From the NCBI GenBank assembly GCA_021792755.1, contig JAJYUA010000001.1:1-64000 (forward strand): 64,000 nucleotides of DNA, written 5' to 3'. The number at the start of each line of letters is the position of its first letter. Positions within the stretch are counted from its first letter, which is position 1. Positions 27,144 to 33,651 of the stretch are shown here, piece after piece. The notes under the pieces were generated by a model. The model did no database searches, was not told the DNA's origin, and saw only the letters and a program-made list of their open reading frames with translations. Origin of the DNA: Pseudomonadota bacterium (lineage in GTDB: Bacteria > Pseudomonadota > Gammaproteobacteria > Steroidobacterales > Steroidobacteraceae). Made by a program: the position numbers and the translations under genes.

Positions 27144-28067
27144 CTAGGCCCGCGGCTCGATGCTGCGCAGGTGGCGGTGAGCGGCGATCCACGCCCCCAG
27201 CCATCCCAGAGCGAGGCCCCCGCCGAACAGCCCGCCGCACTGGCGCCCGGTCAGCCCCGTGAGCACAAAGCCGCTGCCGTACAGCTGCGCCAGCCGCGCC
27301 ACAGGCCCCGTGAGCCCGATCAGCACCGCCTCGAGGATCAGCCAGGCGAGTGCCGCCCCACCGAGCCCATAGAGCATCCCGGTATACAGGAAGGGACGGC
27401 GCACGAAGGCATTCGAGCCGCCGACCAGCTTGGTCACCTCGATCTCGGCGTGGCGGTTGAGGATCTCGAGCCTGATGGTGTTGCCAACCACCGCCAGCAC
27501 GCCGGCGCCCAGCAGCACCGCCGCGGTGGACACCAGCCGCCGCAACACCCCCAGAATGGCATTGAAACGCAGCGCCCACTGCGCATCGAGCTGCACCATG
27601 TCCACCGCCGGCCAGGCGGCCAGATCGCGGCGCAAGCGCTCGAGGTCGACCGCGCTGCTGGACCCGGGCTGCGGCACGATGTGCAGCACATTGGGCAGCG
27701 GATTGCCGTGCAGCACATCGAGCGCCGCGCCGAAGCCTGAATACTTGCGGAATTCCCTGAGCCCCTGCGCCGCGGAAATGACCGTGACGGTCTTGATGCC
27801 GGGGATCGTGCGCGCCCGCTCCGCGAGCCGCTGCGCCCGCTGCAGTGACACGCCGGACTTCAGGTACACGGACATGTCCACGGCCTGGGTGAAGCCGCCG
27901 GTGGCGGCTTCGGCGTTGGTCACGAGCAGCCCCAACGCCGCCGGCAGCGTCAGCGCCAGGCCGATGACCAACAGAGTGAACACGGTGGCGAGCGGCGAGC
28001 GCGCCATACGCCCAAGGGCGCCCAGCAGGGCCTGCGCGTGACGGGTGGCAAGCGTGGCGGGACTCAT
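27144..28067 (-). CDS. ftsX: Cell division protein FtsX
   Basis: A 307-residue inner-membrane partner of FtsE that couples ATP hydrolysis to cell-wall amidase activation at the septum. A first helix at about 28-50 (ATVFTLLVIGLALTLPAALG) is followed by a periplasmic domain of about 115 residues (MSVYLKSGVSLQRAQ) and three more helices in the last third. Family length and order are normal. It is third in ftsY-ftsE-ftsX, 12 bp after ftsE. Confidence 0.94.
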   Translation of the reverse strand: MSPATLATRHAQALLGALGRMARSPLATVFTLLVIGLALTLPAALGLLVTNAEAATGGFTQAVDMSVYLKSGVSLQRAQRLAERARTIPGIKTVTVISAAQGLREFRKYSGFGAALDVLHGNPLPNVLHIVPQPGSSSAVDLERLRRDLAAWPAVDMVQLDAQWALRFNAILGVLRRLVSTAAVLLGAGVLAVVGNTIRLEILNRHAEIEVTKLVGGSNAFVRRPFLYTGMLYGLGGAALAWLILEAVLIGLTGPVARLAQLYGSGFVLTGLTGRQCGGLFGGGLALGWLGAWIAAHRHLRSIEPRA

Positions 28068-28079
28068 GAGGCCTCGGGG

Positions 28080-28772
28080 TCAGCGGTTGGCCACCAGAGA
28101 AGGCAGGGGATCGGGGTCGCCGCCCCGCATCTCGCCGCTGTCGAGCATGATCTCGCGGCTGCCGAACTCGCGCACGATATGTCGGTCATGGGTGGCCACC
28201 AGCACGGTTACACCGACGTCGCTGAATCGTCTGAACAACCGCATCACTTCGATCGACAGCTCCGGATCGAGGTTGCCCGTCGGCTCATCGGCGACGATCA
28301 CCGCCGGCTTGCCGGCGACGGCGCGCGCGATGCCGACGCGCTGCTGCTCCCCGACCGACAGTTCCATGGGCAGCATCCGCTCCTTGCCGAGCAGGCCCAC
28401 CTGGTCGAGCGCGGCGCGCACGCGCTTGCCGATCTCCGTGAAAGGGGCGCCTGCGACCACCAGCGGCAGCGCCACGTTGTCGAACACCGGCCGGTCGGCG
28501 AGCAGCTTGTGATCCTGAAACACCACTCCGATCTGCCGCCGGAACGCGGGTATGTGGCGCTCCTTGATGGCGCCGATGTTGCGTCCGTTGACGCTCACCG
28601 TGCCGCGCGACGGCCGCTCGAGCAGCGCGATCAGCTTCAGCAGCGTGCTCTTGCCCGCGCCCGAGCGGCCGGTGACGAACACCATCTCGCCCCGGTCGAC
28701 GAAGAAGCTGACATTGGTGAGCGCCTCCCGTCCGTTGGGATAACGCTTGCTCACCCGCTGCAGCTCGATCAT
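28080..28772 (-). CDS. ftsE: Cell division ATP-binding protein FtsE
   Basis: A 230-residue ABC ATPase paired with FtsX. The Walker A is GRSGAGKST, the signature is [14 protein letters not shown] (LSVGE in place of LSGGQ), the Walker B is [12 protein letters not shown] and the switch His is in THD. ATG at 28772 ([14 protein letters not shown]) gives the standard FtsE N-terminus and lies 4 bp after the ftsY stop; the frame extends further upstream as a shadow within ftsY. Confidence 0.95.
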
Positions 28773-28776
28773 CCGC

Positions 28777-29754
28777 TCACTCCTGCGTCCCCGCGCGCGG
28801 CCCTTCGACCAGCGCGGCGGCGAATTCGCGGGCATCGAATTCGCCGAAATCCCCCGCCTGCTCCCCGATGCCGATGAAGCGGATCGGCACCCCGAGCCGC
28901 CGCGCGATGGCGATCACGATCCCGCCCTTGGCGGTGCCGTCGAGCTTGGTGATGGCGATGCCGCTCACACCGACCGCCTCGTGGAATTGAACGGCCTGCG
29001 CAAGCGCGTTCTGCCCCTGGTTGGCGTCGAGCACCAGCAGGACTTCGTGGGGAGCGGTCGGGTCGAGCCGCTGCAGGACACGCCTGACTTTTTTCAGCTC
29101 CTCCATCAGGTGCGATTGGCTGTGCAGGCGTCCGGCGGTATCCGCCAACAGGACGTCCGCTTTCTTCGCGCGCGCGGACTGCAGCGCATCGAAGAGCACG
29201 GCACCCGGGTCCGCCCCGGCGTGCTGGGCAATAAAATCCGCGCCGCTGCGCTCGGCCCATACCGCGAGCTGCTCGATGGCTGCGGCGCGGAAAGTGTCGC
29301 CCGCGGCGAGCACGACGCTGCGGCCTTCGTCGTGCAAGCGACGGGAGAGCTTGCCGATGGTGGTGGTCTTGCCGGAACCGTTGACGCCCACGACCAGGAT
29401 GGTGAAGGGCCGGTGCCTCGGATCGATGAGGAGCGGCCGCGCGCACGGCTCGAGAATCCCGATCACCGCCTCGCGCAGCGCCGCGATCAATGCGTCGACG
29501 TCGGCGAGCTCCTTGCGTGCAACCTTCCTGTGCAGGTCCGAGAGGATGTGCTCCGTGGCATCGATTCCGACATCCGCTGTCAGCAGCCGAGTCTCGAGCT
29601 CCTCGAGGACTTCGGCGTCGATTCGCCGTCCCCGCAGCAGATTGGGAAGATCGAAGCCGAGCCGGCCGCGACTCAAGCGCTGGGCCAGCCGTTTGAAGAA
29701 CCCCCGGCGCTCGCCGTTGCGGGGCGCCCCGTCTTTGGAATCGGAATCAGCCAT
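28777..29754 (-). CDS. ftsY: Signal recognition particle receptor FtsY
   Basis: A 325-residue SRP GTPase that docks translating ribosomes at the membrane. The GTPase motifs are all seen: [10 protein letters not shown] (G1), DTFRAAA, DTAGR (G3), [10 protein letters not shown] (G4) and the closing GIGEQAGDF. The acidic A domain typical of E. coli FtsY is almost absent, reduced to about 40 mostly basic residues ([17 protein letters not shown]), as in several short forms. It is first in the ftsYEX operon and divergent from rsmD by 25 bp. Confidence 0.96.
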
Positions 29755-29779
29755 GCGTGGCCGCTAGTGTATCTTAATC

Positions 29780-30873
<1,094 letters not shown>

Positions 30874-30876
30874 TCG

Positions 30877-31689
30877 TCATTTCTGGCATTTGGGGCAGTA
30901 GTACGTCGAGCGGCCCTGCTGCGTCGCGTGCCCGATCATCGTGCGGCATACCCGGCACGGCTCGCCCGCCCGCTCATACACATGCAGCTTCTGCCGGAAG
31001 TATCCCGGCGAGCCATTGGGCCTCACGAAATCCCGCAGCGTCGTGCCGCCCACCCGGATCGCCTGCGCCAACACCGCTCGCACCGCCCGAACCAGCCGCC
31101 CCGCTTCGGCGCGCGAGAGACTGCGCGCCTGCCGCTCCGGCAGGATCCGGGCGCGGAACAGCGCTTCGCTGGCGTAAATGTTACCCACCCCCACGACCAG
31201 GCGGCTGTTCATCAGCAGCTGCTTGACCGCCACCCGGCGCCCGCGGGCCACCCCCCACAGATAGTCCGCGTCGAACGCGGCATCGAAGGGCTCCGGAGCA
31301 AGGTGCGCGAGCAACCGATGTCGGGCTGGATCCTGCGTGAAGTGCAGGCTGCCGAACCGGCGAGGGTCGTTGAAGCGTAGAGTCTGACCGGAATCAAGCC
31401 TCAAGTCGAATTGATCGTGCGCGATTCTGGGGGTATCTGCGGATAACACGCGCAGCGAGCCGGACATGCCCAGATGCAGCAGCAACGTGCCCGACGTCAG
31501 CCTGATCAACAGGTACTTGGCCCGCCGGTCCGTGCCGGTGATCCGCTGGCCGGCGACGCGGGCCGGCAGCGACGGCGACACCGGCCAGCGCAGCCGCGGC
31601 TCGTAGACCTCGAGCGCCACGATCCGCCGGCCGAGGGCATGCGGCTCGATACCGCGGCGGGTAGTCTCGACTTCGGGGAGCTCCGGCAT
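30877..31689 (-). CDS. mutM: Formamidopyrimidine-DNA glycosylase
   Basis: A 270-residue DNA repair enzyme excising 8-oxoguanine. The mature N-terminus PELPEVE provides the catalytic proline and glutamate. The lysine in RRAKYLL is conserved, a helix-two-turn-helix is present around LLMNSRLVVGVGNIYASE, and the C-terminal zinc finger C-x2-C-x16-C-x2-C (CRVC ... CPKC) is intact. The coaD-mutM association is conserved in gammaproteobacteria. Confidence 0.97.
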   Translation of the reverse strand: MPELPEVETTRRGIEPHALGRRIVALEVYEPRLRWPVSPSLPARVAGQRITGTDRRAKYLLIRLTSGTLLLHLGMSGSLRVLSADTPRIAHDQFDLRLDSGQTLRFNDPRRFGSLHFTQDPARHRLLAHLAPEPFDAAFDADYLWGVARGRRVAVKQLLMNSRLVVGVGNIYASEALFRARILPERQARSLSRAEAGRLVRAVRAVLAQAIRVGGTTLRDFVRPNGSPGYFRQKLHVYERAGEPCRVCRTMIGHATQQGRSTYYCPKCQK

Positions 31690-31821
31690 CGCTCTATCCT
31701 GCGCCGCGCCCAGGGTTGGATGTGCTCGAGCGGCGAACGCCGGTCAGGAGCGCCCCCGCGGGCGGCCGAGTACCCCCGCTCGACTCCCGGGGCGCTGCGC
31801 GCGCCGGAAAAACTCCCGCGC

Positions 31822-32409
31822 TCACTGCTCCGGGCGAGTTTTGCGCTTCCCCGGCAACATGCGCCGCAGCACCGAATCCCGCAATACATAGTGATGGGCA
31901 AGCGCTGCGGCGGCATGCAGACCCGCCACGATCACCACCAGGTCCGCCAGGTCCGCGTGCAGACCGCCGATGGTCCGGATCACAGACCGGGTGCTGAAGG
32001 CCGGCCTCGGGAAGGCGAACCAGTCGAACACGTGATTGCCGTACAGCCACACCCGGGACAGCCCGAGCGCCACCGTCACCCCGAGCAGCACATACAGCCC
32101 GTAATGAACGCTGCGGGCAAGCTCGCCCTGCCAGCCCGAATCGGCCGGTGGCAGCCGGCGGCCGGCGCCCGCGCGCCAGGCGATCCGTACCAGCAGTATC
32201 GCGCCCAGCGTGATCCCGAGCAGAATGTGCACCGACAGCGCTGCTTCCCGGGGCCCGCCCTTGGGGAAAAAGCTCAAGGACTGACCAAGTGTCCACAAGC
32301 TCGCCACGAGCACAACGGTGACCCAGTGCAGCAGAATGCTGAAATCGTCGTATCGATGCTCGGCCGCTGCCTTGGCGGGGAATTCGATGGATTCGTCCGG
32401 ATTGTACAT
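31822..32409 (-). CDS. Cytochrome b561-family membrane protein
   Basis: A 195-residue di-haem membrane electron carrier with four helices (about 17-37, 52-70, 92-112, 145-165). Histidines for haem are in ILLHWVTV, LSVHILLG, RSVHYGLY, GLHADLAD and LHAAAALAHHY, matching the bacterial b561/CybB pattern. ATG at 32409 (MYNPDES) is chosen because upstream residues look non-coding. It lies between mutM and rpoH on the opposite strand to rpoH and has no visible partner. Confidence 0.85.
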   Translation of the reverse strand: MYNPDESIEFPAKAAAEHRYDDFSILLHWVTVVLVASLWTLGQSLSFFPKGGPREAALSVHILLGITLGAILLVRIAWRAGAGRRLPPADSGWQGELARSVHYGLYVLLGVTVALGLSRVWLYGNHVFDWFAFPRPAFSTRSVIRTIGGLHADLADLVVIVAGLHAAAALAHHYVLRDSVLRRMLPGKRKTRPEQ

Positions 32410-32585
32410 AATCGAGGTTCGGGAAGCAGTTGCCCTGTCTACGGTAAAGAACGGGGCCGCGCACGATAACGAAAGATACCGAGTCACTGTGAATTTTTCT
32501 GGTCACCGTCCCTTCTTGCTTGGCTAGCGCTTTGGCTCTGACGACGCGGAAGATACGGATCTCTACCCGGGAACCTTTTGGTCGC

Positions 32586-32615
32586 TTAGCACTCGCACAT
32601 ACGGAGTGCTAGTAT
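32586..32615 (+). promoter_or_regulatory. CIRCE operator within the rpoH promoter
   Basis: TTAGCACTC-N9-GAGTGCTAG at 32586-32612 matches the HrcA operator CIRCE (TTAGCACTC-N9-GAGTGCTAA) at 17 of 18 positions with the exact 9-base spacer. A sigma-70 promoter is embedded: TTAGCA as -35 (32586-32591) and TAGTAT as -10 (32610-32615), 18 bp apart, so HrcA bound here would block RNA polymerase. Confidence 0.9.
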
Positions 32616-32641
32616 TCGGCACACTGAATCTGGGAGCATCC

Positions 32642-33532
32642 ATGACCGCAAGCACTGCATTGATCGCCCGGCCCTGCGACTTTGCGCTCGCAGGGCCAGG
32701 CGGCAGCGTAGATGCGTATATCGATCGCGTGAGCCGCATTCCGGTGCTCGACCGCGAGGAAGAGCGCGCACTGGCGGAGCGCTTCCGCAACCAGGACGAT
32801 CTCGGCGCCGCCCGCAAGCTGGTGCTCTCGCACCTGCGCTTCGTGGTTCACATCGCCCGAGGCTATCGAGGCTACGGGCTGCCCTTGGGCGATCTCATAC
32901 AGGAAGGCAATGTAGGCCTGATGAAGGCCGTGAAGCGCTTCGATCCCGAGCTCAACGTGCGCCTCGTGTCCTTTGCGGTGCACTGGATCCGGGCCGAGAT
33001 TCACGAGTACGTCCTGCGCAACTGGCGGCTGGTCAAGATCGCCACCACCAAGGCCCAGCGCAAACTCTTCTTCAACCTGCGGCGGGTGAAGAGGAACCTC
33101 ACCTGGCTGTCCGCGGAAGAAACCGCCGCGGTGGCCAAGGACTTGGGTGTCACGCCCGGGGAGGTCAACGAGATGGAGAAGCGCCTGGCGGCGCACGATC
33201 TGTCGTTCGACCCGGCGCCCGATGCGGACGAGGAGGAATCCTACGGTCCGTCGGCCTACCTGCCCGCGCCGGATGCCGATCCGGCCGAACAGGTGGAAGC
33301 CACGGAGTGGGAGCATGACTCCTCCACCCGGCTGCGCGGCGCGCTCGAGCACCTCGATGCACGCAGCCGCGACATCCTGCAGCGCCGGTGGATGAGCGAG
33401 GACAAAGCGACGTTGCACGAGCTGGCCGACCAGTACGGGGTGTCCGCGGAGCGGATCCGGCAGATCGAGGCCAACGCCATGGGGAAGCTGCGCGGGTTCC
33501 TCACGCCGGAGCCGCAGGCGGCGCCGGCGTGA
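32642..33532 (+). CDS. rpoH: RNA polymerase heat-shock sigma factor (sigma-32)
   Basis: A 296-residue group 3 sigma factor. Region 2 (about 65-135) has [20 protein letters not shown] and [15 protein letters not shown]. The RpoH-specific box QRKLFFNLR follows, and region 4 ends with a helix-turn-helix ([19 protein letters not shown]). ATG at 32642 has GGGAG six bases upstream. Its place near ftsYEX recalls E. coli ftsX-rpoH. Its promoter carries a CIRCE operator, so in addition to any translational control it is probably repressed by HrcA when GroEL is free. Confidence 0.96.
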
Positions 33533-33542
33533 CTGCGTAACT

Positions 33543-33603
33543 CAGGCACAGGGCCGTGCCTGCCGCCGGAGGTGGCGGGCAGCGAGCAAAGACCACGTTT
33601 TTT
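33543..33603 (+). terminator. Probable rpoH terminator
   Basis: Two stems follow the stop: CAGGCAC/GTGCCTG (33543-33562) and CCGCC/GGCGG (33563-33578). A TTTTTT run lies at 33598-33603. The T-run is 20 bases past the second stem, so this may be an imperfect or Rho-assisted terminator. Confidence 0.5.
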
Positions 33604-33651
33604 GCGCGCGGCACACGCGCGGCCGGAGAGGACGGCCGGACCCGGCGCCTG

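Follow-up and report, generated by a model that had tools for sequence, protein, structure and literature searches.

CIRCE and the promoter region of rpoH

The gene rpoH, which encodes the heat-shock sigma factor sigma-32, lies in a 64,000-nucleotide stretch of a Steroidobacteraceae genome (contig JAJYUA010000001.1); we refer to this whole stretch as the window. Upstream of rpoH is a controlling inverted repeat of chaperone expression (CIRCE), the type of operator associated with the repressor HrcA, and promoter-like motifs overlap this repeat. The features of the locus are as follows.

32570..32576, + strand: sigma-E-type -35 element GGAACCT, with GAAC at 32571 and 16 bases (N16) to TCGCA
32586..32594, + strand: left arm of CIRCE, TTAGCACTC, 9 of 9 consensus bases
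32593..32597, + strand: sigma-E-type -10-like element TCGCA, weak, with 2 bases in the CIRCE arm and 3 in the spacer
32595..32603, + strand: CIRCE spacer, GCACATACG, 9 bases
32604..32612, + strand: right arm of CIRCE, GAGTGCTAG, 8 of 9 consensus bases
32607..32615, + strand: extended -10-like element TGCTAGTAT (TGC + TAGTAT), shared with the CIRCE right arm
32632..32636, + strand: putative Shine-Dalgarno-like GGGAG, as read from the sequence
32642..33532, + strand: rpoH, heat-shock sigma factor (TIGR02392), 296 amino acids, with ATG at 32642

Compared to the consensus TTAGCACTC-N9-GAGTGCTAA, the element at 32586-32612 on the forward strand (TTAGCACTC-GCACATACG-GAGTGCTAG) has 17 of the 18 arm bases and a spacer of exactly nine bases. 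The initial annotation had described the site in these terms, and a consensus scan confirmed it: this is the sole match with at most three mismatches in the window, and 100 dinucleotide shuffles yielded none. The CIRCE upstream of rpoH is therefore real. It is located 30-56 bases before the rpoH ATG, with 29 bases separating its end from the start codon. The identity of the downstream gene is similarly clear, as its product scores 403 bits with TIGR02392 (cut-off 323) and is the only open reading frame of the genome above that cut-off. The longest open reading frame would begin with the GTG at 32606, but we disfavour this start relative to the ATG at 32642, because the latter is preceded by GGGAG and because an ATG occurs at or near the same place in the congeners displayed.

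It had also been proposed that CIRCE overlaps a promoter, specifically a sigma-70 -35/-10 pair. No such pair (hexamers separated by 16-18 bases) was found by a consensus scan of positions 32480-33650, and we rule out a sigma-70 pair of the usual consensus beneath the operator. The overlap itself stands, however, with motifs of two other kinds. Promoters recognized by sigma-E have a -35 element GGAACTT and, 16 bases later, a -10 element of the TCTGA or TCAAA type. The window contains GGAACCT-N16-TCGCA, whose -10 half is inside CIRCE, and the right arm of CIRCE runs into the extended -10-like element TGCTAGTAT. The -35 element differs by one base from the sigma-E consensus GGAACTT. TCGCA is at the right distance for a sigma-E -10 element and is a poor match to it; many relatives have TCAAA, TCTAA or TCTGA instead. 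The genome encodes RpoE (TIGR02939, 293 bits; cut-off 236). From these motifs, we would expect transcription to start at roughly 32603-32606 with sigma-E and roughly 32622 with sigma-70, giving a short leader.

HrcA and the distribution of CIRCE at rpoH

A regulatory role for the site presupposes HrcA, which the initial annotation had proposed to look for. The genome has one detected HrcA, a protein of 356 residues whose gene is upstream of grpE and dnaK. It scores 349 bits with the equivalog model TIGR00331 (cut-off 197), and both Pfam domains, PF01628 and PF03444, are above their cut-offs, such that the DNA-binding and C-terminal domains are present. In the whole genome (3.76 Mb), two CIRCE sites have at most three mismatches: the one at rpoH, with one mismatch, and the following.

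G000:C51:26854-26880 (locus L003, 1501-1527): CIRCE of groESL, located before groES, 2 mismatches

At this threshold, the hrcA-grpE-dnaK operon of this genome has no CIRCE. Because only rpoH and groESL carry the element, these genes constitute the predicted HrcA regulon. In the genus, the groESL element is lopsided: in 16 of the 17 groES loci shown, a perfect arm is paired with TTAGCAGCC, while the remaining locus (G034) has no CIRCE. The groESL operator is thus further from consensus than the rpoH operator, given this imperfect arm.

We next consider relatives, placed taxonomically by their rank relative to the window. The set consists of 60 rpoH loci, including the window itself and two loci of one genome (G013). 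The expectation that the site is conserved was borne out, as CIRCE with at most two mismatches is present at 59 of these loci, i.e., all 37 in the genus (36 genomes, our own included; 0-2 mismatches) and 22 of 23 in other families of the order. An asymmetric CIRCE at rpoH, with the right arm GACTGCTAA or GACTGCTAG, is found in part of the genus (L028-L032 and L034-L042).

To explore greater distances, we scanned GTDB genomes for a CIRCE with an RpoH-like motif at the appropriate distance downstream; since the pattern is required, the scan has no denominator. It found at least 119 such stretches, and in tblastn comparisons all 119 of the matches listed align to RpoH of the window, in full or in part, with 47-81% identity. 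The nearest among the matches listed is a Steroidobacteraceae metagenome-assembled genome (L141). Many of the named matches listed are beta- or gammaproteobacteria, e.g., Pseudoalteromonas, Dyella, Thioalkalivibrio, Rhodocyclaceae and Halieaceae, and 78 of the 80 titles among the matches listed are proteobacterial. The two others (L079 and L114) are contigs labelled Verrucomicrobia and Chitinophaga whose rpoH has a CIRCE promoter of the beta/gammaproteobacterial type; they are probably mis-binned metagenome contigs.

Because the GTDB scan selects for CIRCE, we measured prevalence in a separate sample of the class. Among 369 sampled genomes, 268 have hrcA and 345 have rpoH (E-value at most 1e-70); hrcA presence in our samples was judged by one Pfam model in genomes that are partly incomplete. 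We then used the upstream stretches of 94 genomes, hand-picked among the best-scoring rpoH rows. These comprise 71 of the 268 hrcA-positive genomes, each representing a different family (the window's own family is among them), and 23 hrcA-negative genomes found among those rows. CIRCE with at most three mismatches is present at rpoH in 67 of the 71 hrcA-positive genomes versus 8 of the 23 hrcA-negative ones (Fisher P 1.4e-8). In 20 additional genomes, the corresponding counts are 5 of 6 and 0 of 14. That CIRCE presence tracks hrcA is expected if HrcA uses the site at rpoH. While the initial annotation considered rpoH an unusual location for CIRCE, most of the hrcA-bearing genomes sampled in the class in fact have the element there. 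Among 20 genomes of the phylum outside the class, 18 of which have hrcA, CIRCE occurs at rpoH in only one. The wiring therefore looks like a trait of the class, rather than of hrcA-bearing proteobacteria generally. The single locus with the element (L322, in genome G548) has a 1-mismatch CIRCE, which may stem from transfer or independent gain.

It is conceivable that the repeat is a chance match, or an artefact of shared ancestry, with no regulatory role. However, the shuffles gave no matches, the element precedes at least 119 named rpoH loci whose proteins are only 47-81% identical to the window's (albeit in a scan that selects for the site), and the 67 of 71 hrcA-positive genomes with the element each come from a separate family. 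We therefore regard this explanation as exceedingly improbable.

Promoter motifs that overlap the operator

The motifs observed in the window recur in its relatives. In most of them, GGAAC begins 16 bases ahead of CIRCE, and 16 bases after the 7-base -35 element comes TCNNA, formed by two bases at the end of the CIRCE left arm and three at the start of the spacer. GAAC is at the window's offset in 42 of the 59 loci with CIRCE, and one base away in 12 more. On the other side, the right arm continues into TGCTA-A/G-A/T-AT, an extended -10 element, and a TGCTAxxxT element is present in all 59.

We assessed such positions statistically in the class sample, using mononucleotide shuffles, which preserve base composition only and take the loci as independent. 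In 49 of 75 cases, the start of GAAC is exactly 15 bases upstream of CIRCE (maximum of 5 in 2000 shuffles). An A occupies the third position of the spacer in 57 of 75, and a T the third position past the right arm in 71 of 75 (maxima of 36 and 33, respectively, in 2000 shuffles). A motif GAAC-N17-19-TCNNA that overlaps or abuts CIRCE is found in 65 of 80 class-sample rpoH promoters, where 300 shuffles gave a mean of 0.5 and a maximum of 3; 54 of these 65 are in the window's register and 11 in another, with the -10 element within the spacer or upstream of the left arm. The same test is positive for 52 of the relatives' 59 loci and 74 of 118 named loci among the matches listed (one of the 119, L157, has too few upstream bases and was left out).

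The groESL operon serves as a control, as 28 of 30 groESL loci of the relatives set have CIRCE. None of these 28 has the sigma-E motif in any tested register, and none has TGCTARWAT, which is present at 46 of 75 class-sample rpoH CIRCEs. Instead, a loosely defined sigma-32-like motif is found just upstream of CIRCE in 25 of 28 (shuffles: mean 0.1, maximum 2). Given these counts, rpoH and groESL share the repressor site but differ in the type of promoter that accompanies it. The absence of the sigma-E motif at groESL also rules out that GGAAC is part of what HrcA recognizes.

In 29 hrcA-negative class genomes without CIRCE, GAACTT-N15-17-TCNNA is retained in 9 (500 shuffles: mean 0.1, maximum 3). 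The clearest example is a pair of genomes from one genus. The hrcA-positive member (G332) has GGAACTT, then TTAGCAGTC-N9-GACTGCTAA and then GAT, with the palindrome intact. The hrcA-negative member (G224) has kept GGAACTT, TCCAA and GACTGCTAAGAT (TGCTAAGAT is retained), and has lost the palindrome: the left arm is altered and the spacer is 10 bases. In G224, the parts that RNA polymerase needs have stayed and the palindrome has gone.

These observations bear on the idea that the inverted repeat is kept not for HrcA, but for promoter strength or for a structured 5' end of the rpoH mRNA that acts as a thermometer. The right arm does supply the TGCTA of the extended -10 element, and several genomes without a detected hrcA keep the repeat. 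Against this, CIRCE presence tracks hrcA, and hrcA-negative G224 retains both promoter motifs without the palindrome. A thermometer is further disfavoured because the predicted start sites are in or after the right arm, so that the hairpin would not be transcribed. The start of the rpoH mRNA, evaluated for a thermometer of the E. coli type, folds no better than shuffled sequences (z -0.65, with 44 of 200 shuffles equally or more stable, in what is a weak test), and the window has no Rfam match at gathering thresholds. On the basis of the ordinary fold and the lack of an Rfam match in the window, we reject an RNA structure at rpoH, and we consider the explanation as a whole very unlikely.

Quite probably, then, CIRCE functions as an HrcA operator and is built into the promoter of rpoH, and HrcA would thereby repress both sigma-E- and sigma-70-driven transcription of rpoH, in a feed-forward loop with groESL. 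HrcA binding, rpoH repression, the use of sigma-E and the dynamics described here are what we infer from the arrangement of motifs. In other bacteria, HrcA binds across core promoters, and GroE, which is titrated by unfolded proteins, stimulates this binding and is needed for full activity (PMC6032397). In unstressed cells, GroE-activated HrcA on CIRCE would cover the sigma-E -10 and the sigma-70 extended -10 elements, keeping rpoH transcription low. CIRCE would be freed once GroE is engaged by unfolded proteins or HrcA loses activity upon heating. The freed sigma-70 promoter would then give a basal rise of rpoH, and sigma-E released by envelope stress would give a strong one. The gene might thereby integrate cytoplasmic and envelope signals through a gate, with maximal transcription when sigma-E is active and repression by HrcA is relieved. 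Sigma-32 would in turn transcribe groESL from the sigma-32-type promoter abutting its CIRCE. The loop would be a coherent feed-forward loop, because HrcA would control both rpoH and groESL, and the latter would also be a target of sigma-32; newly made GroE would close it.

It is important to emphasize that several observations weigh against this hypothesis. First, hrcA was not detected in 8 of the 60 relatives, and 7 of these 8 keep CIRCE at rpoH, including G039 (100% complete) as well as G012, G048 and G054 (91-92%). Missing contigs, divergence or recent loss could account for such cases. Similarly, of the 8 hrcA-negative genomes among 23 in the class sample that retain CIRCE, 5 are less than 80% complete and 2 have a 3-mismatch form, while G153, which is 99% complete, retains a 1-mismatch CIRCE. 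Conversely, 5 of 77 hrcA-positive genomes have no CIRCE at rpoH. The Fisher P-value overstates the evidence, because the genomes are related and were counted as independent. Finally, the sigma-E motif is missing at some CIRCE-bearing rpoH promoters (15 of 80 in the class sample, 7 of 59 in relatives and 44 of 118 named matches listed), and the weak -10 element TCGCA, which the window has in common with its two nearest congeners, makes sigma-E function at the window's promoter uncertain.

The last two points also favour a more restricted explanation, in which HrcA controls rpoH via CIRCE, the promoter is only the sigma-70 extended -10 element, and GGAAC is a functionless inherited relic in the genus. 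The universal presence of TGCTAxxxT in the relatives' loci with CIRCE fits this proposal as well. However, GAAC holds its exact offset in most of the relatives' loci, many congeners have TCAAA, TCTAA or TCTGA at the -10 position, and rpoE is present in the genome. We consider this explanation unlikely.

Proposed ancestry of the promoter and comparison to known systems

In E. coli K-12, the region upstream of rpoH contains GAACTT-N16-TCTGA, which we take to be promoter P3. It is a sigma-E-type motif with the spacing of the window's, and differs in that no CIRCE is present (the best match has 8 mismatches) and that E. coli, used as a control in the HrcA search, had no match. We find it moderately likely that the composite sigma-E/sigma-70/HrcA promoter is ancestral for sigma-32 control in Gammaproteobacteria sensu lato (with the betaproteobacteria), and that in most of the class HrcA stands above sigma-32 and represses its entire regulon. 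HrcA-less models such as E. coli P3 would then be a stripped remnant, in which the sigma-E promoter outlived HrcA and the palindrome decayed.

With regard to gene order, ftsX-, ftsE- and ftsY-like genes (27144-32487), which adjoin rpoH in E. coli K-12, are a few genes away from rpoH in the window. Between them and rpoH are rsmD-, coaD-, mutM- and cytochrome b561-like genes, named by eye; the cytochrome b561-like match scores under the model cut-off.

HrcA-repressor and sigma-32 control of heat shock are usually presented side by side, based on species that have just one of them or in which each works on its own. Should HrcA occupy rpoH in the majority of hrcA-bearing members of the class, both systems would form a single hierarchy, the sigma-32 response would be gated at the transcriptional level by GroE capacity, and E. 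coli would be a derived case. What took over from HrcA upon its loss then becomes a testable evolutionary question.

The heat-shock regulons of beta-, gamma- and epsilon-proteobacteria were reportedly treated by Permina and Gelfand in 2003. In the open-licence literature searched, CIRCE at rpoH is explicit only for Geobacter (PMC545781), and Permina and Gelfand 2003 or regulon databases may list more. We found no report in that literature of the breadth of the CIRCE-rpoH association or of the overlap with sigma-E motifs, and an earlier listing elsewhere is possible.

In Geobacter sulfurreducens, a perfect CIRCE is located at -51 before rpoH and HrcA control was predicted, as in the window, for this one species (Rodionov et al. 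2004, PMC545781); Geobacter is a separate published case beside the wiring of this class. The classical HrcA/CIRCE systems at groESL and hrcA-grpE-dnaK have the same palindrome, spacer and repressor family as the window, and HrcA sites there overlap core promoters, as at the window's rpoH (PMC6032397). Unlike in those systems, the target here is the sigma-32 gene, with a sigma-E-type motif; at groESL of this same lineage, CIRCE follows a sigma-32-like motif and not a sigma-E motif.

A 1999 paper on groE of Agrobacterium tumefaciens is said, by its title, to concern differential and independent roles of both regulators. RpoH and HrcA both act on that operon, according to a review (PMC11764788). 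Both regulators are present there as here, whereas in the window's lineage the sigma factor would itself be under the repressor's control. For rpoH P3 of Pseudomonas aeruginosa, dependence on AlgU/sigma-E is reported (PMC13104619), and such control would be comparable to that predicted from the sigma-E-type motif of the window. At the rpoH promoter, an operator and a promoter type that were each known before are joined into a composite, which seems to extend across the class.
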